In this document: one piece after another, positions 2,830-30,572 of the stretch | Numbering within the stretch: position 1 is the stretch's first letter | Layout: every line of letters begins with the position of its first letter | From: a virus | DNA: 35,524 nt | IMG/VR virus record: IMGVR_UViG_3300014913_000038 | Coordinates: 1-35,524 of that record | Direction: 5' to 3' (one strand) | The notes under the pieces: model-generated | Seen by the model: only the letters and a program-made list of their open reading frames with translations | What the model was told of the DNA's origin: nothing | Database searches by the model: none | Made by a program: the position numbers and the translations under genes

Positions 2830-4080
2830 TCAGCTCCCCCTCAAGGCGCGCTCGACTTCCGTCTGGGCGTCGTCCAAGCTCGTGTGGATTTTGATCCAGT
2901 TCTTGTGTGTCTGGACGTGCCGCATCAGATCGAAGAGGTAGTCCTTGGCGTTCGCCTCGTCGGCGTACTTCTTGAGCTGCGAAAGGACGCTGACGCGCAT
3001 CTCATTCGGCAGATCTTCGAGGTACATGACGAAGTTCCCCGCCGTGACCTCGACGTCGGGTTGCAGGCTGAACATGTAGGTGAGGACGTTGACGTTGAGT
3101 TCGGTGATCTTTTCCTGCTCGGACTTGTTGAGGAGGAGCCGCACCGGCTTCCGCGCCATCTTCTTGTAGTTCAGCACCACGTCCTCCGCCCGGACGGCCG
3201 TGCGGTTGTCTTTGAGGTGCTCGACGAGCTGGGTACCCATGTGGATACCGACCGAGGCCGCGAAACGGCAGAGTGCGAACTCGTTGTCCAGCGGCTTGTG
3301 CATCTTCTCGAGCATGTAAGCATCGAGAGAGATGGTTTGCACCGTGGCCGGACACATATACTGCTTGCCCTCTCCCTGCGCCTTCTTGTCGTACAGGTTC
3401 TTGGGGTACTGTACGATGAAGTCCAGGACGCCCTCGTGGCACGGACGGCTTTTGCCGTCGTCGAAGCACTGCCGGTCGCTCATGTGGAACTGATCGCTCG
3501 AAGCGTGCGCGACCCAGTCCTTGAACGACTCTAGCGCGAAAAACCACTTCAGACGGCGGCGAAGTGCAGCGTTGTTTTCGATCTGCGTGACAGCGTACTG
3601 CGCCGTTGCCGGGTTCATCAACGCGATGACGATGGCCTCGTCCGGGAGGACGTAGTTGAACATTCTCCGGTCTTCGATGAGCGAGAAGAACATGGCGATG
3701 CTGTGCTGGAGACCCTGGTTGATCTCCTCGAACAGCATGATGGACTTCTCGCCTTTCTTGGGGAACACCGACGGAACAAGAAGATCGAAGTAGCCTTCGG
3801 GCGAATCCTTGGTGCTCGGGATGCCGGTGCCCACGAGGCCGTAATGCGCGGTGCGGATGTCGTAGATGCTCGCGCCCTCTTCGCGGGCGATCTCCGCGAT
3901 GATCTGGGACTTTCCGATGCCCGCTTCTCCGACGATGCAGATGGCGCCGCGGTGTTGTCGGGTCTTCCAGGTGAGCAGAATCTGGTCCTTGATCTCCGCG
4001 ATGGTGGCGCGCGGGATGTCGTACTTGTCCGCGTAATGAAGTTTCTTACCTGCTTCTTCTTCTTGCCTGCCTCTTGCCAT
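2830..4080 (-). CDS. MoxR-type AAA+ ATPase
   Basis: 416 residues. Walker A is GEAGIGKS (51-58). Walker B is IMLFEEIN (114-121), a MoxR-like 'FxDEIN' variant with Glu-Glu. Sensor 1 is in ALMNP (153-157), followed by an arginine-rich finger segment (RRR, 174-176). MoxR ATPases act as chaperone-like motors that remodel partner proteins, commonly VWA-domain or metallopeptidase/VWA proteins. The DUF2201-type metallopeptidase at 1-643 is the likely client. The start is supported by AGAGAGG seven bases upstream. The start codon is only 20 bases from the divergent terminase start. GC-rich third positions set it apart from the terminase and the 705-2455 pair. The ATPase call is firm; the phage function is not known. 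Confidence 0.85.
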   Translation of the reverse strand: MARGRQEEEAGKKLHYADKYDIPRATIAEIKDQILLTWKTRQHRGAICIVGEAGIGKSQIIAEIAREEGASIYDIRTAHYGLVGTGIPSTKDSPEGYFDLLVPSVFPKKGEKSIMLFEEINQGLQHSIAMFFSLIEDRRMFNYVLPDEAIVIALMNPATAQYAVTQIENNAALRRRLKWFFALESFKDWVAHASSDQFHMSDRQCFDDGKSRPCHEGVLDFIVQYPKNLYDKKAQGEGKQYMCPATVQTISLDAYMLEKMHKPLDNEFALCRFAASVGIHMGTQLVEHLKDNRTAVRAEDVVLNYKKMARKPVRLLLNKSEQEKITELNVNVLTYMFSLQPDVEVTAGNFVMYLEDLPNEMRVSVLSQLKKYADEANAKDYLFDLMRHVQTHKNWIKIHTSLDDAQTEVERALRGS

Positions 4081-4100: not shown

Positions 4101-5699
4101 ATGAGCAACTCCCGCTCTACATCATTATCCGTCGTCGCTGAAGCCTGGATTCAGCTTGACGGAAAGGATTTTCGGTTAATGGACTGGCCGATGCACCGCG
4201 CTTTCTACGACGGGCGTTATCGACGAACTTTGTTTAAAACTGCGCGCCAGGTCGCGAAGTCTACTACGTTAGCGAATTTCTCCATCATCGAGTGCAGTCT
4301 TATACCACACTTCTCCACCATGTTTGTTAGCCCTTCCAAAGAGCAGACAACGCGATTTTCGAATACTCGTATCGGAAAGACTATGCGGTACTCTCCGATC
4401 ATTAACGAACAGTTCTTACGTACAGATCTTGCAGACCGTGTTTTCCATAAACAGTTTACGAATGGTAGCGAGATGCTCTTTACCTACGGTTGTGATGATG
4501 CTGAGCGTTTACGTGGCCCGTCTACTGACCGCAATATGTATGACGAGGTTCAGGATATTCTTTACGACCCGGTCATCACAGTGGGTAATGAGACTATGGC
4601 CGAATCGGATTACGCTTTTGAGACTTACGCTGGAACTCCTAAGACGATGGAGAATACCATCCAATATCTCTGGGAGCTCAGTACCCGGAGTGAGTGGGTA
4701 ATGAAGTGCGACGGGTGTGGTAGTCACGTTTTTGTGGATAGTGAAAAGTGCCTAGGTAAGTATGGACCAGTTTGTCCGAAGTGTAAGCACTACTTGAATC
4801 CGTTTACAGGTCAGTGGATCGACATGGTTCCCAGTAAGAAATTGCAGGGATTTCACATCAGTCAACCGATGATGCCCCGTAACGTTCCCTTAGCTATGCG
4901 TTCCGCTGGTAGGTCGAGTGCTGAGGTTAAACAGGCAGAGTTGCGCTGGGAGCGTATCCTGCAGAAGTTTGAAGAGACGCCCCTATCTACTTTCCGTAAT
5001 GAGGTTCTGGGCGTCTCAGATGAGATTGGTAGTCGGCTCTTGTCGCAGGAGGAGCTCGAGTCGCTTTGTACGGGGGATCCTCTGCAACAGTTCCCAGATC
5101 GTAAAGCCCTTCAAGGAATTACGCAGATTGTCGCCGGAGCTGACTGGTCGGGGGGCGGCACGACAGGCGTCTCACGTACTGTTCTTTGGATCTGGGGTTG
5201 GCGTCCGGTTGACCAGAAACTCATAACCTTGTTTTACAAGGTATACCCTGGTACTAACCCGGTGACTGCCGTAGAAGAAATCGCGCTGGTCTGTAAGCAG
5301 TATCAAGTGTCGATGTTCTGTGGAGATGCTGGAGAGGGCGCGCTGGCTAACGACCTCATGCGTACTCATCTCGGGCATCACCGGGTAATCCAAGTGCAGT
5401 ATGGGATGCAGGCTAAGGCACTTAAGTTCAATCAGGTAGACCGTTATACGGGTGATCGTACCACCCTGATCGATAATTACTTCATGATGCTGAAGCAAAA
5501 GAAAATAGAGTTTGGTCCCCTGGCGGAGATGCGTGTTGCTATCAACGACATCCTTAACGAGTACGAAGACGTTACACACACGGACCGAAAGGTGTGGCGC
5601 CACTCCCCGCAGAAGCCCGATGACTGTTTGCATGCGGGCCTCTTTGGGTGGTTGGCGTGGAAGATAATCAATAAAGACTTCAAATTCTGGCAAGAGTAG
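4101..5699 (+). CDS. terL: Terminase large subunit (DNA packaging ATPase-nuclease)
   Basis: 532 residues. The N-terminal ATPase has a variant Walker A, ARQVAKST (48-55), and Walker B RNMYDEVQ (144-151). A four-cysteine zinc-ribbon-like insert follows (C203, C206, C225, C228). The C-terminal RNase H-like nuclease supplies acidic residues in GADWSGG (D348), CGDAGEG (D409) and KPDDCLHAG (D507/D508). The protein packages phage DNA through the portal and cuts concatemers; the portal is at 22037. No strong ribosome-binding site precedes the ATG, and only 20 bases separate it from the start of the divergent MoxR gene, so its promoter must lie inside that gene. No small terminase is recognisable in the window. 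The stop codon itself begins the structured region that follows. Confidence 0.92.
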   Translation: MSNSRSTSLSVVAEAWIQLDGKDFRLMDWPMHRAFYDGRYRRTLFKTARQVAKSTTLANFSIIECSLIPHFSTMFVSPSKEQTTRFSNTRIGKTMRYSPIINEQFLRTDLADRVFHKQFTNGSEMLFTYGCDDAERLRGPSTDRNMYDEVQDILYDPVITVGNETMAESDYAFETYAGTPKTMENTIQYLWELSTRSEWVMKCDGCGSHVFVDSEKCLGKYGPVCPKCKHYLNPFTGQWIDMVPSKKLQGFHISQPMMPRNVPLAMRSAGRSSAEVKQAELRWERILQKFEETPLSTFRNEVLGVSDEIGSRLLSQEELESLCTGDPLQQFPDRKALQGITQIVAGADWSGGGTTGVSRTVLWIWGWRPVDQKLITLFYKVYPGTNPVTAVEEIALVCKQYQVSMFCGDAGEGALANDLMRTHLGHHRVIQVQYGMQAKALKFNQVDRYTGDRTTLIDNYFMMLKQKKIEFGPLAEMRVAINDILNEYEDVTHTDRKVWRHSPQKPDDCLHAGLFGWLAWKIINKDFKFWQE

Positions 5700-5808
5700 T
5701 GCTGCTATCCTTTCGCTGGTCGCTTACCAGCAGAGAGTGCCTCGTGTATGTAACACGAAACTCTCCGGCGTGTAGCACGCCGTAGGAGTGGGTTCTCCTT
5801 CCAGCACT
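5698..5808. ncRNA. Structured module 1: five-way-junction (cloverleaf-like) fold
   Basis: A perfect 7-bp closing stem (AGTGCTG 5698-5704 with CAGCACT 5802-5808) encloses four consecutive hairpins: 5715-5720/5726-5731, 5733-5738/5760-5765 extended by 5742-5747/5753-5758, 5766-5772/5776-5782, and 5784-5788/5795-5799. The layout resembles a class II tRNA. However, it is about 111 nt, has a 10-nt gap after the closing stem, lacks a proper T-loop and is followed by GAAAAA, so I do not call it a tRNA. Confidence 0.5.
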
Positions 5809-5814
5809 GAAAAA

Positions 5815-5944
5815 GGTACTGCTGTGTTCCTCCTGTAACTCTGAAGGCTTGGCCAGAGTTACAGAAGAACGCCGTTTTAGTGGCCCCTGAACTCGCCGAA
5901 GTTTTTCGGCGAGTTCCCTGGGCCGATTACTGATTCTCAGATCG
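5815..5944. ncRNA. Structured module 2: two long perfect hairpins
   Basis: After GGTACTG (5815-5821) there is an 11-bp stem (5833-5843 with 5854-5864). A 12-bp stem follows (5889-5900 with 5905-5916, loop GTTT), sitting inside an outer GGCCC/GGGCC helix (5882-5886 with 5920-5924). A short bipartite hairpin (CGAT..CTGA/TCAG..ATCG, 5924-5944) leads to the next GGTACTG word. Confidence 0.5.
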
Positions 5945-6045
5945 GTACTGCTGTGAGTCCCCGTAGCCCGGCCCTAGCCGAGGTTGATGTACAAGGTCCG
6001 ATGAGTACATCATCCTCAGAGAGGGCTCGGGCTACCAGTGGATCT
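5939..6045. ncRNA. Structured module 3: long bulged hairpin
   Basis: The main stem GTAGCCCG (5963-5970) pairs with CGGGCTAC (6028-6035) and continues through a one-base bulge into GCCCT/AGGGC. An inner stem GATGTAC (5986-5992) pairs with GTACATC (6005-6011). AGATC (5939-5943) can pair with GATCT (6041-6045), closing the module and competing with the last hairpin of module 2. Such mutually exclusive pairing could act as a switch, but this is inference. Confidence 0.45.
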
Positions 6046-6047
6046 CA

Positions 6048-6230
6048 GGTACTGCTAGCGTAATGGAGTCACTTCCTCCGCTGCATGTCTCGAGCTGCGT
6101 GACAACGTAGTTGTAACGCGCCGAGCATGTCGGCGGAGGTATGTGAAGCCATTTGCCAAGCCAGCCGCAGTCGTTACCTGTTGGGAGAGTAGCTCCCCCT
6201 CTCTTCCTGCAAAACAAAGAATCCAGTACC
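6048..6230. ncRNA. Structured module 4: extended hairpin closed by GGTACTG/CAGTACC
   Basis: GGTACTG (6048-6054) can pair perfectly with CAGTACC (6224-6230). Inside is a rod-like hairpin from 6064 to 6151: TCAC/GTGA, CCTCCGC/GCGGAGG (6075-6081 with 6133-6139), CATG-CTCG/CGAGCATG, GCGT/ACGC and ACAAC/GTTGT with loop GTA, interrupted only by small bulges. A further small hairpin GGGAG/CTCCC lies at 6183-6197. Confidence 0.45.
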
Positions 6231-6245
6231 ATTCACTTTTACCTG

Positions 6246-9218
6246 TTATTGTGCGAGCTTTTCGAAATCACTTTTGATCTCGTGCTCGAGGTAATCGTCT
6301 CCGCTCACTTCGGTTTCTTGGACGCTTCCACTTAAGTATTTATCCACATCGCTTAGCTGACCGTATGATGGGCCGACTTCTACGTCCCACAAGAAGGGGA
6401 CAGGCAACCAGCGATACTGGTCGTTAACTCGTTTAACCCCGTGCTCTGTGATGAAATCCGGCATCTGAGAAACGTACTTCTTAGGGATCTCCGCAACCAA
6501 TGAGTCATGTACTGTAATGAGGAGGTTGCCCTCGAAGTCCCGACGAATAGGTTCATCGACAGCGTTCAGAACGCGCATAATGATCTCAGAGCTTGTGCTC
6601 TGGATCAGCATGTTGACAGCTTGACGCTCAGCCTTGTTCCGCATCTTGAAGGTCATGCCCCGGAGGTTGAACCTCCGACGACGCCCGAAGAACGTTTCTA
6701 CACACCCGAGATACTGCACCTTTTCCTTGGTGCGTGAGATGTACTCGGGGATGGTGGGGAACATTTTGAACAGGGAGTCGATGATGGCAGCGGCCTGCGC
6801 TTCGGGGATCCCGACGATCCCCGCGATCTTTTTGGGGGCCGCGCCATAGAGAATACCGAATACGACTCGCTTGATGTTGCTACGCAGTTTCCCGAGTTGC
6901 TGCCCGTAAGCTACGTCTGGACCAGGGTTCTTGTCAGTTCCGACGTAGTATCCGCGCTTCTGGAAGTCCTCATAGCTCCAGTCGTGCACGTCATCAATTC
7001 CAACAAGCTGAAGAACGCCTGCGCGGTCACCTGCACTAACGCCGTCTAGAATCGTTGCGGGGTTGAGCACCATCGAAGAAAAGTAGCTGTGGGGGTCGAG
7101 GCCCTCGTTGAGGGCGGTGATCAGGTTCTTGTCGCGGCTGTAGGCCGCGTAAATTCGCACCTCCGCAGCTTTGGCGTCTGCGTTCATGATGACCTGGCTA
7201 TCCGGGTCTGTGGGTATGAAGCAGCGTTTGATGTTGTGATTGCCGATCTTCTTGGGGATGTTCTGCATGTTCTCGTCTACGGACGAGAGCCTCCCCGTAG
7301 CAGTGCCGTGAATCTTGAAATTCGTATGCATCCGACCATCTTCTTCGCTCAGGACCATGATGTTCTCGACGAACGTGTCCCGAGCTTTGGTCAACGCGCG
7401 GTATTTCAAGAGCGTATCGGAGAACCGACAGTCGTACTGGTTCTTGAGCACACGGAGGAATTTAGCGTTTGTAGAAATGAGCCCGGTGTCGGTGTAGGGG
7501 ATGTCGTCTTCCGGCACAACGCCGGTATGGCATACTGGTTCGTGAGTTTCGGGGTGCAAGTACCCGGCACCGAAGAGAATCTTTCGAAGTTGCGCCACAC
7601 TTTTAGGATTGAAATCTTGGTCTCCCAGAGTACGTGGAGGAATCATTCCCAACAGCTCGATCTTGTACTCAAGCATAGACGTGTCCATCTTCTCTGCGAG
7701 GTCGAGCACGTAGGGACGATCTACGCGCATTCCAACTTCTTCCATTCGGGCAAGCGTGCGCGTTACCGGTAGGAGTTGCTGGAACATCAGGTCTTTCAGG
7801 GGTTCAGCAGCTTTCGTCCCGGGAGCGGAAAGGATCTGGAAGTAGCGGTTGGTGCCGAGCTTCTTACGGCGAGCGTTGAGGTTGTGTTGCTCATCAATCA
7901 TTCTCTTACGCTGAAGAAGTGCTAGTTGCCGCGTAACATCGGCGTCAATGGCTCCGTAAACATGAAGATGTTTAAGAGGTACAAACCCGAAACCGAAGTC
8001 TTCTGACATTTTTTTGGCCGCACCTGTGAGCTTAGGTGCATCAGGATCTCCAGGAGGGAGCGAGGCTTTGTGTTCAGCTACTCGCTTTTTGTTGATAGCT
8101 TGTAGCTCATCTTCGTAACCGCCATATTGTGGAAGAAAGCTTTGTGTCATCGACTTCAAGTCGTAGTAGCCCTTCTTGGCTTCTGCGAGCAGGTGCTCTC
8201 CGAGCATCGTATCCCATGCTAGGTGTTCCACATCCCACCCTTTACGACGTAAAACCTTGAGGTCGAATTTAGCATTATGGAACGCTTTGGGCTTGGGACA
8301 GCTCAGGAGCTGCTGAATATACGGAGCAACTTGTGCGAGGGTTAGCGGACTCTCTGCGTGTTCTACCGGGATCGATGCCGCCTTTCCCGGACCCCAGGAA
8401 AACACGAACGACAGCATTCGAAGTTTTTCCAGGTGGGGGTAGAGCGTATTGGTTTCAGTATCTACTGAAATCAGGTGTTTCTCGGGGTCGCGTCCGTCCG
8501 TAGAGTATTCGATCACCTCCTCTATGAGTTTGCGTACCGCATTCTCGGATTTGGGAAAGCGGTAGTCTTTGATGATCATGTCCGTTGTCATCGTGGTATG
8601 CACTGCTTTACCGTCTCGGGCTTTGCATACTGCATCCAGAAACTGCTGGACTTGCCGCATGAAGATTTCATGATGCTCGGGATTGGCTGCTAACTGCCGC
8701 TTGGAGAGCGACGGCATTACGATCACGCGACGCCCCCCAACGTGCGTATCCAACATCCGTCCCTGCACTTTTTTGTACCCGGAAACTTTGATTCCAAGAG
8801 ACTGTAACACGGCAGGTCCAAGCGCAAAAACCATGATGGGCATTCGCGTATGTGCAGATTTCAATAGTTCAGGATGAAAGAGTTTGGAACAGGCTTCTCG
8901 CATCACCTTAAGCGGTTTATCTACGGAACAACGAACCGCATACGTAAAGCGTCCCTGCAGTTGTCGGTATTTGGAGGTAGTAGTTTGAAGGTCCGCAAAG
9001 GAGCGTTTGATAATCTTCTCAACGTCAAAGCCCCACGGAGTGTGCTGATAAGTCGAGTTGGACACCCCAGGAACGTAAGGGGACTCGGCTACGCAGAAGT
9101 AGTGAACACCCTCCTGCGCGCCGGTTCCTTCGAGATAATGTGCTTGCTGATACAGCGGGCATTCAGAGCATTTCTCTCCCTGCCACGCATTCTGTCCGCA
9201 AAGATTGCAGTTGAGCAT
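6246..9218 (-). CDS. polA: Family A DNA polymerase with 3'-5' exonuclease and UDG-like N-terminal domain
   Basis: 990 residues. Residues 1-200 begin with two CxxC knuckles (C4, C7, C17, C20) and resemble the uracil-DNA glycosylase superfamily (CVAESPYVPG near 42-51, a late VIVMPSLSKRQLAANP segment), but the catalytic GEAPG and HPS motifs are degenerate. The exonuclease has DTE (253-255), NAKFD (315-319) and YGAIDAD (421-427). The polymerase has TATGRLSS (639-646), motif A around D681 (NADAKAAEVR), motif B RSNIKRVVFGILYG (779-792) and motif C VHDS (903-906). All key catalytic residues of the exonuclease and polymerase are present, so it should be an active replicative polymerase with proofreading. 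UDG-like/Pol I fusions are, from memory, known in SPO1-like phages. It starts three bases after the primase-helicase stop, with a GGGGGTG ribosome site. Confidence 0.95.
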   Translation of the reverse strand: MLNCNLCGQNAWQGEKCSECPLYQQAHYLEGTGAQEGVHYFCVAESPYVPGVSNSTYQHTPWGFDVEKIIKRSFADLQTTTSKYRQLQGRFTYAVRCSVDKPLKVMREACSKLFHPELLKSAHTRMPIMVFALGPAVLQSLGIKVSGYKKVQGRMLDTHVGGRRVIVMPSLSKRQLAANPEHHEIFMRQVQQFLDAVCKARDGKAVHTTMTTDMIIKDYRFPKSENAVRKLIEEVIEYSTDGRDPEKHLISVDTETNTLYPHLEKLRMLSFVFSWGPGKAASIPVEHAESPLTLAQVAPYIQQLLSCPKPKAFHNAKFDLKVLRRKGWDVEHLAWDTMLGEHLLAEAKKGYYDLKSMTQSFLPQYGGYEDELQAINKKRVAEHKASLPPGDPDAPKLTGAAKKMSEDFGFGFVPLKHLHVYGAIDADVTRQLALLQRKRMIDEQHNLNARRKKLGTNRYFQILSAPGTKAAEPLKDLMFQQLLPVTRTLARMEEVGMRVDRPYVLDLAEKMDTSMLEYKIELLGMIPPRTLGDQDFNPKSVAQLRKILFGAGYLHPETHEPVCHTGVVPEDDIPYTDTGLISTNAKFLRVLKNQYDCRFSDTLLKYRALTKARDTFVENIMVLSEEDGRMHTNFKIHGTATGRLSSVDENMQNIPKKIGNHNIKRCFIPTDPDSQVIMNADAKAAEVRIYAAYSRDKNLITALNEGLDPHSYFSSMVLNPATILDGVSAGDRAGVLQLVGIDDVHDWSYEDFQKRGYYVGTDKNPGPDVAYGQQLGKLRSNIKRVVFGILYGAAPKKIAGIVGIPEAQAAAIIDSLFKMFPTIPEYISRTKEKVQYLGCVETFFGRRRRFNLRGMTFKMRNKAERQAVNMLIQSTSSEIIMRVLNAVDEPIRRDFEGNLLITVHDSLVAEIPKKYVSQMPDFITEHGVKRVNDQYRWLPVPFLWDVEVGPSYGQLSDVDKYLSGSVQETEVSGDDYLEHEIKSDFEKLAQ

Positions 9219-12200: not shown

Positions 12201-12623
12201 GCGCATAATTGCTTGCTTGGTGTTCTGGTTGGTCTTCTGTGCGCGGAGCTCTTCGATAGCTTTCCGCGGCAGGAAATTCAGGTGGTATCTTTCGTTGAGT
12301 AATTGAACGGCATCGGCGTCTGTGCCGTCCATCAGAAGAGCAAGAAGCTCTATAGGATTGGAAGTATAGTACTCACACCCAAAGCACTTCGCGTATCCCT
12401 TGGCGGTAAATACGAAAAATGATGCAGTGGTATCCGCATGTTTAGGGTGGGGACATAGACATTTCAGGGTAGTGTCCCCTGCAAATTCGATGTTGGACTC
12501 GCGCTTGAAACTGTTGAAGAATTCGTACCAGTCCCGAGGCGACACCGTATCCCAGATCTTCCAGATCTGGTCCCTGGTAATGCCTCGTTTCTTACCCTTC
12601 TTCTTCTTCCTTTCCGCAGGCAT
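9222..12623 (-). CDS. Primase-helicase (zinc-finger/Toprim primase fused to AAA+ helicase)
   Basis: 1,133 residues from ATG 12623. A lysine-rich N-terminus is followed by a DnaG-like zinc finger (C57, H62, C80, C83, with CPHPKHADTTASF and CFGC) and a Toprim domain with the catalytic Glu in TEGEMDV (E307) and the DxD-like GDSPNKGASGGD (D358...D368). After a long linker comes an AAA+ helicase with Walker A GETHSGKS (744-751) and Walker B LLCLDEFEF (D796, E797). It would unwind DNA and lay down primers for the polymerase encoded immediately downstream. I prefer this ATG, which has AGGGAG about 13 bases upstream. An in-frame GTG at 12695 would add 24 residues but has no ribosome site and overlaps the upstream nuclease gene by 104 rather than 32 bases. 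The C-terminus is acidic (EEEIQEQLEEYDDWG). Confidence 0.9.
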   Translation of the reverse strand: MPAERKKKKGKKRGITRDQIWKIWDTVSPRDWYEFFNSFKRESNIEFAGDTTLKCLCPHPKHADTTASFFVFTAKGYAKCFGCEYYTSNPIELLALLMDGTDADAVQLLNERYHLNFLPRKAIEELRAQKTNQNTKQAIMRVCNQVMCDTIANPSKYPYAKKAVDWLANDRKVPTDVLHALPVGVMPPLTELGRLLVSDYKKAKGAWDIDTKRSPAPPEDVTDNAINYLTDSFSAQFVVGGVVWPLHATPTEIARLKIRGPNNNDPKDIVMPLDEYEDLLGMYGLGWKPYQTLLDPKTMSEWAYLTEGEMDVMTYMAYSLKRGMPNFPLFSVGGKGGSAHIEPIFKAAGLTGAYMIGDSPNKGASGGDVVVRNWMTKIRNLRVKIFTGWDALVPSGDLDEAVLQHGIDKVEEQLWKNPSKTFIPAWQWAAELAVVAIDNLPERDYRMMVDVAATMGGCLRHRHDIEKYAQEIANLYDEITIPILKREIASSEDSEAGFILRCTDALNDHFATLATKLEGGNRWLLLYAKRAREYRRIKLDSEQSLAQELAPTTGNLLQFVRNEVGFPAFMDDPNELEGQARRRADTAVRYYLKEACLDMANGVPDLTSTSTLRQGYHTVKKLDGTTREYVVCGKDVVHIERSDTGEPIYNHLDGPYHDGILFDLGLSNVQEDTTPWYPGGLTPKVLETAKDIEVGPLLTDLERFFDIGFQFATHDIMPTLLAAQTLIFPIMNAFDRQMLMFITGETHSGKSTLMSAFCGHSSPAIRLVLCSQGIENFTAAGVIAATHCDSRLLCLDEFEFDGNKSEHVRTVMEMIRGLVSEQSRRVTAFKDGRGSRVTQHRHPVILAGITGAERPQDLNRLLIVEMKKITSRNSPENILVKEFGEARIQEMSRQIAVGLYPHVPEILMHYREIKKQFVELNALLPFQVEWRYASALFGAMALLKYLGRDWQTFFREFVEKNATTIHRASTVNESSSLLGAMFNNGALFMFDEKRKVSVATLLGSSATRSEVNTHSCGVYYDDATKNVMVLLGQAMPVLIPPNHPMRNAPEVRVRDTLERHRLALTPEEIKNSGMIQRAAPFMGANISVEDVVAFHAHPWLNESSQPAAPAASTDSDKTEEEIQEQLEEYDDWG

Positions 12624-24584: not shown

Positions 24585-27500
24585 ATGGCCAAGCTGACCC
24601 CGCTCATGATCGGGCCTGACGAGAGGCGCGAACTTATTCGCCAGAAAGTTATGGAAGGACTCCAAGAGTCGTTCCCTATCCAGTCGCGTAATAAGACTAT
24701 TGAAGTAGATGACCTTCAAGTCACAGGGAAGGACTACAGTCCTTCAGCTCAGAAGAAGGCCATCCTTACAGGTGACTCGCTGTTCGAATCAGTGAAGGGC
24801 ACCGTACGCATGAAGGACAAGGACGGGAAGGTCATCGATGAGATGAAGAACTTCACGCTTGTCCGAGTGCCGTATTTTACCCCCCGGCACACCTTCATCA
24901 TCGGGGGGAATGAACACTCCATGTCCAATATGGTACGACGGAAACCTGGGGTATACTCGCGTAAACGTGCCAACGGAATTCTAGAAGCCGGGTTCAATAC
25001 CCTGGGGGGATCGAACTTCAAGATTAGCATGGACCCAGCCAAGGGGCAGCCTCAACTTGAATACTACTCGACCAAGATCCCTCTCTACCCCATTTTGAGA
25101 CGTTCCGGAATGTCGCACGATCAAATTGCGAAGTCCTGGGGATCAAAGTTGGCAGACGCAAATGCCAAGGCGCTGGAAAAGAAGGGGGATAAGTACGTAG
25201 ATAAACTCTACAAGAAGGAAGTTCCCTCTTACGCCCGAGATGATTCCAAGTCTGCGACTGAGAAGATGCGAGAAATCGCGGAACGTTACCGTAACGCCAA
25301 GATGGATCCGGAAGTGAACCAGCAGACTATCGGAAAGCCCCACGCGTACGTGTCTCCGGATAGCCTTTTGGATGCGTCTTCGAAAGTCCTGAAGATTTTC
25401 AACAACCAGGCGGAGGTTGACGATCAGGACAACTTAGGGTTCAAAACGATTCTCTCGGTGGACGACTTCTTTAAGGAGCGTATCAAGCTCCATGCTAGAG
25501 AGGTCGCGAAGAAGGCCGCGATCAAGATGGAGTCAACCCCGAACCTGAAGAAAGCGATGCCCTCAGGGCCGTTCACCAAGGACCTTTTGAAGTTCATTTC
25601 CAGTACGACATTGTCGTCGATTCCTGACCAGACCAACCCCGTCGATTTGATCGACGCGGCAATGCGCGTGACATCTCTTGGTGAAGGCGGGATCTCTACG
25701 GAAAGGGCGATCCCCATTGAAGCGCGCCAGACTCACGTTACGCAGATGGGGGCGCTGGACCCCATCCGAACACCGGAGTCCATGCGTGCTGGAATCGACA
25801 TCCGGGCGGCCGTTACGGCACAGAAAGACCCGAAGGGGGACATCTATGTCCCCGTTTACGACGTAAAAACTCGGCGTGAAAAGTATGTCAAAGCTGGAGA
25901 CCTCCAAAACTCCGTGGTGATGTTCCCGAACCAGCCCTCCAAAGGACGCGTAGACGTTGTTGATCAGGGAGTTGTACGCCGCGTACCCTTCTCGAAAGTG
26001 GATTACCAGATTCCTCATCAGTCGAGGATGTATAGCCCCACTACCAACCTCATCCCATTCCTGGAGTCTGCGCAGGGAAACCGCGCAGTCATGGGCTCGA
26101 AGATGCAGGTGCAGGCACTGTCGTTGGTGGATCGTGAGGCGCCTTATGTACAGGTTGCGACTCCGTCGGGTAAGTCATTTGAGAACATGATTGGGCGCAT
26201 CATCAATCCTCATGCTCCAGTGTCGGGAGTAGTGAAGAAGATCGACGATGACTATATTTATCTGCAACCTGACGGGGAGAAACGGGCTGCGAAGGGCGAT
26301 CTTATCAAGGTGCCCTACGATAAGAACTTCCCGCTAGCCGCGAAGACGTACTTGAATCACGACTTGGAAGTGAAAAAAGGGGATCGCGTAAAGGCTAACC
26401 AGCGACTGGGTGACTCTAATTTCACTCGAGGGGGTACCCTCGCGCTGGGAAAAAATATGAGCGTCGCGTTCATGCCGTACTATGGCGCGAACTCCAACGA
26501 TGCGGTCGTTGTGAGTGAGGATGCGGCTAAGAAGTTAACGTCTGAGCGTATGTACAAGATCGTGGTTTCCAAAGACCCTGACCTTACGTTCAGCGCGAAT
26601 AAGCATAAGACCTACTATGGGCACAATTACACAAAGGACCAGTACAAACCTATCGATAAGGACGGAGTTGTCGCTCCTGGTACTAAGCTGCTTCCAGGAG
26701 ATCCTGTTATAGTAGGGGTTCGAAAGACCGAGCTTTCCCCTGATGACTTGATTCTGGGGAAGCTGCACAAGTCTCTGGCACAACCCCATCGTGAGTTCAA
26801 GCAGGGGTGGGATCACGACCACGAAGGTGAGGTAGTGGACGTGGTGAAGACACCCAAGCGCATCACCCTCACAGTTAAGACGAAAGAGCCTGCGGGAATC
26901 GGAGATAAGATCGCTGGGCGATACGGTAACAAAGGAGTTATCTCAGAGATCGTTCCAACTGACCAAATGGTGCAGGACGAGGCTGGAAAGCCCATCGACG
27001 TACTCATGACTTCTGCGGGGGTGGTTTCGCGTATCAACCCGAGCCAGATTATCGAGACGGCAGTCGGGAAGGTCGTGGAGAAGACGGGCAAGCCGATAGT
27101 GGTCGAAAACTTTCAGGACCGTGACAATGTCAAGTGGGCGAAAGACCTCCTAAAGAAGCACGGGGTGAAAGACAAGGAGACGGTTTACGACCCCCGGTCC
27201 GGGAAGAAGATCCCTAAGGTTTTTGTGGGGCGTCAATACCTCTATAAGCTCTTCAAAACGACCGACAACAACTACAGTGCGAGGAGTACGGGCTCTTATG
27301 ATATGAATCTCCAGCCCACCCGCGGAGGTACGCAGGGCTCTAAGCGTGTTGGTAGGATGGAATTCGATGCGTTAGTTGGACACAATGCTCGAAATATCCT
27401 ACGTGAAGCAGCAACGGTGAAGAGTCAGAAGAACGATGAATTTTGGCGGGGAGTACAACTTGGACAAACTCCCCAGGAGCCCAAGTCTACTTTTGCCTAC

Positions 27501-30500
27501 GACAAATTTTTGGGGATGCTTACGGGTGCGGGTGTTAGAGTACGGCGTGACGGTAGCCGCCTGACCTTAGGGCCGCTTACCGATAAAGATGTCTTGGAGA
27601 TGTCAGCAGGAGAGGTGAAAGACGCCAAAATTGTTCGAGCCAAAGATTTGCGTCCTGAAGCAGGAGGTCTTTTTGATCCCGGCGTAACCGGCGGCTTACG
27701 CGGTACACGATGGTCACATGTTGACCTAGCTGAACCTGTTATCAATCCGGTCTTCAAAGAACCAGTGCGCCGTCTTTTGGGCATGACGAATGCGCAGCTC
27801 ACAGAGACCCTCAAAGAAAAGGGTGCCGCGCATATTCAGAAGCAGCTCAAGAAAATCGACCTGGACGAGAAAGAGAAGTCTCTCCTCAAGCAGATGAAGG
27901 GGCGTAAGGCTGATCAGCTGGACAACGAGATCAAACAGGTCAAATACATCCGGGCACTCCGGGACGTAGGGGTGACACCCGACAAAGCATACATTGTAAG
28001 CAAAGTCCCAGTAGTGCCTCCTGTGATGCGCCCTGTCGTGCCGGGCCAGGGAGGAACGCAGATCATCTACGGTGACGCTAATCCGCTGTACCAGGACCTT
28101 ATTTACATTAACAACCAAATGAAAGAGGTCAAGAATCCGAAAACTCCCACTCCGCCAGGAGAGGAAGCACGTTTGCGTCCTGCATTACAACAAGCGGTTG
28201 GTGCCGTGTATGGAACGGATGAGCCTGCTACTGCGAAATCTAAAGCACGTAAGCATAAGGGCTTCCTTACCTACATCTCTGGAGTGGGGGGTCCGAAGCA
28301 CGGGTTCTTCCAATCAAAGCTCATGGTACGCTCTCAAGACATGGCTGGGCGCGGTACCATCGTGCCCGACAGTACTCTTGGAGTGGACGAAATCGGAGTT
28401 CCGAAAGAGATGCTCTGGGGGATGTACGACAAGTTCGTTGTACGGCGTCTCGTGCAGCAAGGGTTCCCGGCAGTTCAGGCCAAACAGATGGTCGAAAAGC
28501 GCCACATGGCTGCAGAAGAAGCTCTCCGCAGAGAAGTGCAAGAGCGCCCGGTGCTCATGAACCGCGCTCCAACACTGCATCGTTATAACATCGTCGGTGC
28601 GAAACCTGTACCGGTGCCCGGGCGTACTATCCGCGTGAACCCGTTCGTTGAGGCGGGAATGAACGCAGATTACGACGGCGATAGTTCAATTACCGATGTA
28701 ATTGTGAGGATAACAAAGCCCATAAATATCAATACGTTGCCCATTAGAGTAAGTGATATCCGAAACCGAAGCAGGGAGAACGCGCTAAATGCGAATTACG
28801 GTATTGGCAGCCTTCTGCCTGAAGGGTACTATAACCTCCATCTGCGGGACTTCCCTCGTACCAAGGAGGTTACCGTGAAGGATAATAAAGAAATCTACAA
28901 GGTGCCTGAAGGAGTTCAAGTATTCGGATTCAGCAGTAGGGAGCAGTCCGTCATATTGTGCGACGTCACAGAATTCTCCGTCCACCACAACCTAGAGATT
29001 ATCCTAGTTACTACTGAGAGCGGACGTACTGCGCAGGTGTCCAAAGATGATAGTATGTTCGGGCTCAACCCCATTACGTTTGAGTTGGAGCGTTTCAGTG
29101 GTCCGGAACACTCAGATTGGGCTATTCCAAGGCCCTCGAGATTACGCTGTAAAGATATTCCCGCCGTAGACAAGGTGTATGTTCCGATTGTACGAGATAT
29201 CAGAGAATTTTCTGACGACACTCTAGAGATACCTCTTAATGAGGACACTGGTTGGTTGCTAGGCGCAGTTGTAGGCGACGGCTGGATTACTTACCGGTCG
29301 GATTCTGGCCTGCCAAGGGCGAGTGCTGTTGGTATTGCTAGTGTCGATCCTAGTATACAGAACAAGTTCAAACGTACTCTTACCTCGCTTGCGGAAGGTA
29401 AAGAACCTATTACATTTAAGCTCTACGAAAATAATCACAAGTATGAGGGACACACTTGTCATTCTGAAAAACTCCATATGTATGGATCGGGACTGGCTAC
29501 GGCCCTTGGTGAAGTTTTCCAGCACACTACGGGTGCGGCCAACAAGCACCTTCCCGACGTGTTTACAAACGCTCCTCGGGAGTTTTTGATTGGGTTGCTA
29601 GCCGGACTCTTGGATACCGACGGTACCGTTAGTATCGTAAAGGCCAAAGCAAAAAAACAACCTCAGGTTGTTGTCCACTACACTACTATCTCACCTCGAC
29701 TGGCAGATGAGGTAGCGACACTCGGCCTTCTTCTGGGAGTAAAAACTAAGGTACATACGGCAAAGCGTAAAACGTCGGCGGACAATAAAGAATACCAAGT
29801 GCATTTCAGCACGCCAGACCTGAAGTCTATCGCAAAGGAGTTGCCTTGTGCTGTCCAATATAAGAGAGACAACCTGAAAACACTGGCTTCTTGGGACTTT
29901 AGTCTGAAGACAATTTCGTCCAAGACAGACCGCGTTCCTCTTCCTTCTAATCTGGTTGCTCCTCTTAAAAAACTAGTAGGTCCCGTTAGGAAAAAAGAGT
30001 GGGATACACTTTCTGATGAGAAGGTTTCGGCGTTGCGCAAGCGAGAGAGTATTCATGTTATTCTTAGTAAGGCGAAACGTACAGGGAAGATAGGAAGATC
30101 GACTCTGGAGGATCTTATCGAAATCTACGGAAGAGAGACCGTAGCTAAAGTGACGTCTCCCAAATGGCTAGAGTTGGTTACTAACCCCTACATCATTTGG
30201 GATTGGATAAAAGACATCACCCCCATAGAAGGCCGTCACACCGCTTGGGACCTTACAGTTCCAGATGGCAACACGTTTATGACGTCAAATCAGCTCATTG
30301 TGTACGACACCATGCAGCTCCACGTTCCGGTGGGGCCTAAGGCCGTACAGGAGGCGAAAGACATTACGCTCTCCAACCTTCTTTTTGGCGATAAATCCAA
30401 GAGCGACCTGTTGGTGTTTCCGCAGCACGAGGCGATCATGGGTATTCACCACGCGTCTCGGATGGATGATAAGAACAAGACAGTGAAGAAGTTCAAGACG

Positions 30501-30572
30501 AAGGCCGACGCTATTGCTGCGTACAAGCGCGGTGATATCAGTTTAGGGACGCGAGTAAAAATTGGAGGATGA
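24585..30572 (+). CDS. RNA polymerase beta fused to N-terminal beta', interrupted by an intein
   Basis: 1,995 residues. Beta motifs in order: FIIGGNEHSMSNMVRRKPGV (about 104-123), DPIRTPES (about 392-399), LIPFLESAQGNRAVMGSKMQ (about 490-509), AFMPYYGANSNDAVVVSE and GDKIAGRYGNKG (773-784), ending near 948 with MEFDALVGHNARNILREAAT. Beta' starts around 1000 (SAGEV...EAGGLFDP) and continues with KVPVVPPVMRPVV, ISGVGGPKHGFFQSKLM and VLMNRAPTLHR (1323-1333) to the catalytic NADYDGD (1360-1366). The intein occupies 1367-1908. The extein resumes with TMQLHVPVG and ends after FPQHEAIMGIHH and KRGDISLGTRV. No N-terminal beta' zinc site exists; the whole 1,453-residue extein has no cysteine. The rest of beta' is at 32842. 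CGGAGGAG precedes the ATG. Confidence 0.95.
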   Translation: MAKLTPLMIGPDERRELIRQKVMEGLQESFPIQSRNKTIEVDDLQVTGKDYSPSAQKKAILTGDSLFESVKGTVRMKDKDGKVIDEMKNFTLVRVPYFTPRHTFIIGGNEHSMSNMVRRKPGVYSRKRANGILEAGFNTLGGSNFKISMDPAKGQPQLEYYSTKIPLYPILRRSGMSHDQIAKSWGSKLADANAKALEKKGDKYVDKLYKKEVPSYARDDSKSATEKMREIAERYRNAKMDPEVNQQTIGKPHAYVSPDSLLDASSKVLKIFNNQAEVDDQDNLGFKTILSVDDFFKERIKLHAREVAKKAAIKMESTPNLKKAMPSGPFTKDLLKFISSTTLSSIPDQTNPVDLIDAAMRVTSLGEGGISTERAIPIEARQTHVTQMGALDPIRTPESMRAGIDIRAAVTAQKDPKGDIYVPVYDVKTRREKYVKAGDLQNSVVMFPNQPSKGRVDVVDQGVVRRVPFSKVDYQIPHQSRMYSPTTNLIPFLESAQGNRAVMGSKMQVQALSLVDREAPYVQVATPSGKSFENMIGRIINPHAPVSGVVKKIDDDYIYLQPDGEKRAAKGDLIKVPYDKNFPLAAKTYLNHDLEVKKGDRVKANQRLGDSNFTRGGTLALGKNMSVAFMPYYGANSNDAVVVSEDAAKKLTSERMYKIVVSKDPDLTFSANKHKTYYGHNYTKDQYKPIDKDGVVAPGTKLLPGDPVIVGVRKTELSPDDLILGKLHKSLAQPHREFKQGWDHDHEGEVVDVVKTPKRITLTVKTKEPAGIGDKIAGRYGNKGVISEIVPTDQMVQDEAGKPIDVLMTSAGVVSRINPSQIIETAVGKVVEKTGKPIVVENFQDRDNVKWAKDLLKKHGVKDKETVYDPRSGKKIPKVFVGRQYLYKLFKTTDNNYSARSTGSYDMNLQPTRGGTQGSKRVGRMEFDALVGHNARNILREAATVKSQKNDEFWRGVQLGQTPQEPKSTFAYDKFLGMLTGAGVRVRRDGSRLTLGPLTDKDVLEMSAGEVKDAKIVRAKDLRPEAGGLFDPGVTGGLRGTRWSHVDLAEPVINPVFKEPVRRLLGMTNAQLTETLKEKGAAHIQKQLKKIDLDEKEKSLLKQMKGRKADQLDNEIKQVKYIRALRDVGVTPDKAYIVSKVPVVPPVMRPVVPGQGGTQIIYGDANPLYQDLIYINNQMKEVKNPKTPTPPGEEARLRPALQQAVGAVYGTDEPATAKSKARKHKGFLTYISGVGGPKHGFFQSKLMVRSQDMAGRGTIVPDSTLGVDEIGVPKEMLWGMYDKFVVRRLVQQGFPAVQAKQMVEKRHMAAEEALRREVQERPVLMNRAPTLHRYNIVGAKPVPVPGRTIRVNPFVEAGMNADYDGDSSITDVIVRITKPININTLPIRVSDIRNRSRENALNANYGIGSLLPEGYYNLHLRDFPRTKEVTVKDNKEIYKVPEGVQVFGFSSREQSVILCDVTEFSVHHNLEIILVTTESGRTAQVSKDDSMFGLNPITFELERFSGPEHSDWAIPRPSRLRCKDIPAVDKVYVPIVRDIREFSDDTLEIPLNEDTGWLLGAVVGDGWITYRSDSGLPRASAVGIASVDPSIQNKFKRTLTSLAEGKEPITFKLYENNHKYEGHTCHSEKLHMYGSGLATALGEVFQHTTGAANKHLPDVFTNAPREFLIGLLAGLLDTDGTVSIVKAKAKKQPQVVVHYTTISPRLADEVATLGLLLGVKTKVHTAKRKTSADNKEYQVHFSTPDLKSIAKELPCAVQYKRDNLKTLASWDFSLKTISSKTDRVPLPSNLVAPLKKLVGPVRKKEWDTLSDEKVSALRKRESIHVILSKAKRTGKIGRSTLEDLIEIYGRETVAKVTSPKWLELVTNPYIIWDWIKDITPIEGRHTAWDLTVPDGNTFMTSNQLIVYDTMQLHVPVGPKAVQEAKDITLSNLLFGDKSKSDLLVFPQHEAIMGIHHASRMDDKNKTVKKFKTKADAIAAYKRGDISLGTRVKIGG
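28683..30308 (+). other. LAGLIDADG intein inside the RNA polymerase catalytic loop
   Basis: 542 codons inserted between D1366 of NADYDGD and T1909 of TMQLHVPV, exactly inside the metal-binding loop that all cellular beta' subunits share. The N-terminal residue is Ser. The two homing-endonuclease motifs are intact: WLLGAVVGDGW (about 1557-1567) and LLAGLLDTDGTV (about 1671-1682). The C-terminal block reads AWDLTVPDGNTFMTSNQ and ends in Tyr-Asp before the +1 Thr. The usual His-Asn end and the block B His (here SKDDS) are replaced. Splicing is needed to restore the polymerase active site. Codon use is visibly more A/T-rich than in the flanking gene, as expected for a mobile element. Confidence 0.88.

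Follow-up and report, generated by a model that had tools for sequence, protein, structure and literature searches.

Retrons have been known chiefly as bacterial defences against phages in which one non-coding RNA (ncRNA) is encoded beside one reverse transcriptase (RT). Arrays in which a single RT serves several msd donors have been engineered and are man-made, while the one proposed here would be natural. It occupies the gap between the convergent genes terL and polA in the IMG/VR virus record IMGVR_UViG_3300014913_000038 (positions 1 to 35,524, the whole stretch analysed, hereafter the window), and is very probably a retron ncRNA array on the minus strand, served in trans by an RT of the phage.

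In described retrons the priming guanosine ends a1, most often in the context TAGC, the msr hairpins have loops of 3-10 nucleotides, the msd is a long hairpin, and the msr stem bound by region Y of the RT has a three-base loop (PMC6868368). The locus shares with bacterial retrons the a1/a2 stem, the G directly after a1, the small-loop msr hairpins, the long msd hairpin and a retron-type RT with a YADD motif. It is unlike them in that the RT lies several kb away, in trans, that several ncRNAs occur per genome in tandem, nested or dispersed, that one msr may be followed by two to five msd/a2 units, and that the RT, which is syntenic across the phage group, has altered NAxxH and VTG motifs and, in most cases, a Cys/His insertion. 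The nearest precedent is the repeated msr/msd of Retron-Nex1 (Ne160) in Nannocystis exedens, with no RT within a kilobase, as summarised from Lampson and Rice 1997 in PMC6868368. By that summary the repeats are chromosomal duplicates, whereas here the a1/a2 stems are unrelated in sequence and covary strongly, the msd are unrelated, and the array resides in phages that conserve an RT. The open-access literature searched, a scope outside which most subscription papers lie, yielded no natural array of this type; within it, the proposed use of a single RT for dispersed ncRNA arrays and the sharing of one msr by several alternative msd/a2 units are new.

The gap is bounded by the stop codons of terL (5697-5699) and polA (6246-6248), contains no open reading frame of at least 80 amino acids (5700-6245), and is tiled by modules that fill the whole space between the terL stop and a point shortly ahead of the polA stop. 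A reading of the letters alone (the sequence-only reading) had described it as a gene-free region of large hairpin modules and a possible structured phage RNA, and much of its anatomy is borne out. An exact 12-bp stem (5889-5900/5905-5916), an 11-bp stem (5833-5843/5854-5864) and a rod (about 6064-6151) are present where it placed them, and its module-starting words, AGTGCTGCT at 5698 and GGTACTGCT at 5815, 5944 and 6048, recur at spacings of 117, 129 and 104 nucleotides as it had claimed. These words are stem halves whose partners it overlooked, namely CAGTACC at 6224 and CAGCACT at 5802; on the plus strand of the gap GGTACTG occurs three times versus a single CAGTACC. That no U-tract follows the stems was correct for the plus strand, but on the minus strand, and only there, a U5 follows the last GGTACTG/CAGTACC stem. 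The comparison with shuffled sequence, which it had proposed as a possible refutation, did not refute it: the plus-strand minimum free energy of 5690-6240 is -256.5 kcal/mol versus -182.9 +/- 6.4 for shuffles (z -11.4, 0/100), and the minus-strand fold of the gap gives z -12.4. Its structured phage ncRNA is supported as regards structure and covariation, but not as regards class and strand, and the product would include DNA. The anatomy, the orientation to neighbouring genes and the co-occurring RT all favour the minus, polA-sense strand, and the earlier reader most likely took the wrong one.

Read on the minus strand, each ncRNA has the order a1, an invariant G, hairpin P4, hairpin P3 with a G-YWA-C triloop, one or more long variable hairpins, AG and a2. 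In the window, a complete ncRNA takes up 5808-5698, and another a1/msr (6230-6183) heads a series of three msd/a2 units (Table 1).

Table 1. Elements of the proposed retron array and the two genes that flank it, in window coordinates.
Feature	Position	Strand	Basis or remark
terL	4101..5699	+	PHROG 675, E 1.1e-45; converges on array
a2 of second ncRNA	5698..5704	-	stem match; overlaps terL stop codon
msd of second ncRNA, two hairpins, AG end	5705..5765	-	fold
msr hairpin P3 of second ncRNA, G(CUA)C triloop	5766..5782	-	fold, relatives
msr hairpin P4 of second ncRNA	5784..5799	-	fold
Putative priming guanosine of second ncRNA	5801	-	CT/C signature
a1 of second, complete ncRNA (AGTGCTG)	5802..5808	-	stem signature, fold
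a2 copy 3	5815..5821	-	sequence copy; then U5 (5814-5810) on ncRNA strand
msd unit 3, with the 11-bp and 12-bp stems	5822..5943	-	precisely missing from near-identical virus contig L001
a2 copy 2	5944..5950	-	sequence copy
msd unit 2	5951..6047	-	stems, fold
a2 copy 1	6048..6054	-	exact complement of a1, AG before
msd unit nearest msr, long imperfect hairpin, AG before a2	6055..6182	-	fold; z -5.7 as DNA
msr hairpin P3 of array, ncRNA-strand triloop G(CUA)C	6183..6199	-	fold; GTWRC triloop enrichment in gaps
msr hairpin P4 of array	6202..6220	-	fold of 6048-6230, minus strand
Putative priming (branch) guanosine directly after a1	6223	-	invariant C on plus strand; CT/C signature
a1 of array ncRNA (ncRNA-sense GGTACTG)	6224..6230	-	pairs with CAGTACC copies; stem covaries in relatives
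DNA polymerase gene (polA)	6246..9218	-	PHROG 17, E 1.4e-113; directly upstream of ncRNA array, co-directional

The same plan recurs in relatives, collected from IMG/VR as 21 loci by the window terL and 80 by alignment of relatives. The listed matches to the tandem GGTACTGCT pattern in IMG/VR were assumed to be mostly chance, the words being short. Many relatives have a terL-polA gap filled with modules, and in others terL abuts or overlaps polA. Contig L001 represents nearly the same virus (terL 100%, gap 98.8-99.2%) minus exactly one unit between 12-bp repeats. Hairpins with a G-TWR-C triloop on the plus strand and stems of at least 6 bp number 48 in 50 kb of gaps, and such loops do not rank among the commonest triloops across 742 kb of flanks. 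When only the triloop hairpin and a 7-bp stem were required, CT after the 5' strand together with C before the 3' strand was found in 71 cases, 63 of them unique and a few being the same place in two overlapping loci, versus 5.4 on average for each of the remaining 47 combinations. The outer a1/a2 stem measures 7-17 bp and is unrelated in sequence from module to module. Covariation in relatives, whose absence the sequence-only reading had also named as refuting, is evident in this stem: 12 of 13 pairs changed on both sides, and the score over 51 elements is 1.20, where shuffles give 0.23 and slid controls no more than 0.18. This is partly by selection, as stems preselected as exact matches are fully paired by construction; the variety of pair types is not. 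The putative priming G stands in TAGC or CAGC in some elements and in TGGA, TAGA or CGGA in most, and the modules fold as four- or five-way junctions.

Arrays with several msd are found elsewhere, with four units in L002, three in L011, two in L008 and five in L067, and nested and tandem complete units are seen in L007, L009, L051 and G021. Modules also occupy other intergenic sites in relatives, some near tRNA or tmRNA genes and some between co-directional genes. By automatic calls, 18 of 26 clusters have the minus (ncRNA) strand running in the direction of the upstream gene; of the other eight, six belong, by our reading of the coordinates, to the terL-polA gap, with polA as the upstream gene. 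An AT-rich motif, GTTAAANTCTGTTAACG(T), was noticed by eye before the gene adjoining module clusters in three relatives (L235, about 12505-12555; L218, about 4980-5030; and L294) and is perhaps a phage promoter. Among the relatives, a tmRNA and, in G017, a group of about 38 tRNAs were noticed (L253 4134-10724; L235 15829-16207).

A single RVT_1 gene per genome was found in 14 of the 14 relatives first tested, which were all records except the partial window, and the L001 contig is among the carriers of the RT. The gene lies about 6 kb from terL, and the spacing in L001 would put it about 1.6-2.8 kb to the left of the window start. All 15 genomes compared share one operon arrangement, in which the RT gene is accompanied by genes for a VWA/DUF2201 protein, a 215-aa protein (present in 13) and a 470-aa protein. 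Sequence searches with PADLOC, NCBIfam and the PDB group it with the retron RTs; the closest solved enzymes are Ec86, Eco2/Ec67 and Eco7/Ec78, and the closest PADLOC classes RT_XIII and RT_III-A. A ColabFold model of the L001-contig RT (19 sequences, pLDDT 87) agrees with this placement: the first 17 PDB matches of the modelled fold are all retron RT chains (Ec86 at E 7.9e-19), with group II, DRT and DGR enzymes lower. An assignment to the DGR or DRT type was rejected, as both ranked below retron in hidden Markov model and fold comparisons. Most of these phage RTs carry the Cys/His insertion. In a larger set of records, often incomplete, the RT was present in 19 of 32, with two below the cut-off, and no strict module was detected in two large relatives that lack the RT (G018, G044). 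G003 has two modules with a GTATC loop. These genomes are fragments, so an RT or module missing from a record is weak evidence. The operon and its syntenic loci (L225 2146-6969 in G001) always join the RT to the VWA/DUF2201, 215-aa and 470-aa proteins; its syntenic neighbour, an AAA ATPase gene (window 2830-4080), is reminiscent of MoxR-VWA pairs.

The link between RT and modules rests on anatomy, co-occurrence and RT identity, and several observations weigh against it. The RT is encoded beyond the window, at a distance of several kb from the ncRNA, which sets it apart from classical retron cassettes, although a shared cassette is a trait of those cassettes rather than of the reaction. NCBIfam scores of the RT fall below the curated cut-offs, and its retron motifs are altered from NAxxH to A/SxxxH and from VTG to M/LLG, the His and Gly being kept; known retrons vary as well (PMC6868368). 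The RT-positive genomes G008 and G023 lack a detectable module, as does contig G009, and the triloop is not enriched at 79 bacterial loci with relatives of the RT. The Rfam msr model (RF00170) did not match, and the control for RF00170 matched nowhere either. Finally, G-U is not favoured over other mismatches in the module helices. The first tests of wobble pairing were noisy and were repeated on strong helices only (45 versus 0.7 in shuffles), where mismatches comprised 6 GT, 5 AC and 31 other, while tRNA acceptor stems of the same phages, with 27 GU, 1 AC and 3 other, prefer the wobble. Among the bacterial contigs, one from an Exilibacterium metagenome-assembled genome (MAG) (L379, about 1915-2110) carries an ncRNA of the same plan upstream of an RT match, in which the triloop hairpin is GTAAC and a1/a2 spans 13 bp.

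It is this missing wobble preference, together with the triloops, that led a DNA-level element to be considered first. C(GNA)G triloops number eight on the plus strand, the strand of the would-be multicopy single-stranded DNA (msDNA), and none on the other. The plus strand as msDNA strand fits both the C(GNA)G loops and the missing preference. Selection on the DNA product explains the latter only partly, since msd stems usually contain wobble pairs (PMC6868368), which is discordant.

In the mechanism that we propose, minus-strand transcription would read through from polA into the array. The RT, encoded in trans, would bind the msr, with the P3 triloop hairpin as its likely recognition element, and prime from the 2'-OH of the invariant G as positioned by the a1:a2 stem. 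Copying of the msd from the invariant G next to a2 would yield msDNAs that begin with 5'-CT and fold into plus-strand hairpins. From the invariant CT a start with dC is predicted, as in Eco8, where dC is the first msDNA nucleotide on the branch G (PMC12887533). Since each of three a2 copies is a possible partner for the array a1, a single msr could give several alternative msDNAs. One may speculate that these act as decoys or sponges for host defences that sense single-stranded DNA; alternatively, they and the neighbouring VWA protein may make up an exclusion system carried by the phage. We regard it as an even chance that these large phages form a clade with a core trans-acting retron RT serving natural ncRNA arrays, including those where one msr/a1 can use any of several a2, so that infection would yield a changing repertoire of structured single-stranded DNAs, for instance as counter-defence decoys. 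If true, phages would make sets of structured single-stranded DNA by reverse transcription and so stand opposite retron defence in the arms race; the arrays would give a natural parallel to the multi-donor retron arrays constructed for genome editing, and the large number of natural ncRNA variants tied to one type of RT would offer a route to the rules of msr recognition.

Other explanations of the gap were weighed against the retron array. A new large structured ncRNA of the phage, transcribed from the plus strand and acting as RNA, was the proposal of the sequence-only reading, with GOLLD and ROOL as its models. The very stable fold, the conserved multi-branched modules and a plus-strand energy below that of the minus strand in most relatives speak for it, and GOLLD and ROOL are likewise large structured RNAs associated with phages. 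The class could not be upheld: an Rfam search of the gap gave nothing at or near the gathering threshold for these or any other family, neither sequence nor structure resembles GOLLD or ROOL, and these lack the retron anatomy and RT seen here. GNRA and UNCG loops are not enriched on either strand, wobble is not preferred, the plus form would be antisense to its neighbours outside the terL-polA gap, and the correlation with the RT would be left unexplained, which makes this explanation highly improbable.

Very unlikely, too, is a DNA-level site, in which folded single-stranded DNA or a cruciform would serve recombination, replication or packaging in the manner of attC or IS200/IS605. Perfect Watson-Crick stems of variable sequence, triloops including C(GNA)G, and the exact loss of one unit between direct repeats would suit such a site, but against it stand an orientation tied to transcription and the signature of priming G and AG-a2. 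Screens of 15 records for tyrosine recombinases and Y1 transposases were empty, an RT being found instead, and the mobile-element reading (attC, IS605) was dropped. N4-type hairpin promoters were likewise set aside, as the conserved outer stem and priming-G signature are foreign to them. GC skew and origin analysis showed no consistent link, and a BLASTn search of phage isolates gave no match.

The least probable explanation is a bidirectional terminator or protective 3' untranslated region for terL and polA, for although the element lies between convergent stop codons and has the minus-strand U5, the sequence-only reading rightly found a simple terminator a poor explanation: the gap is a far more elaborate set of multi-hairpin modules than a single GC-rich hairpin and U-tract, the U5 follows the last a2 only, units are also found between co-directional genes and next to tRNAs, several relatives in which terL abuts or overlaps polA have no element there, and G006 has a separate hairpin, classical and terminator-like by eye, after its cluster.

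Elsewhere in the window, the phage encodes a multi-subunit RNA polymerase, as a fused Rpb2+Rpb1-like protein with a LAGLIDADG domain (24585-30572) and a separate Rpb1 domain 5 piece (32842-34641), with a LigD primase-polymerase/phosphoesterase-like gene between them (31210-32841). Contig L344 (QMZE01000001.1 in GTDB, titled Archaeoglobales archaeon MAG) is probably a mis-binned phage; it measures 78,677 nucleotides, as does IMGVR 3300014914_000004. At 35377-35524 the window ends in a 33-bp tandem repeat of 4.5 copies (98% match), within an apparent coding region that runs off the window end.
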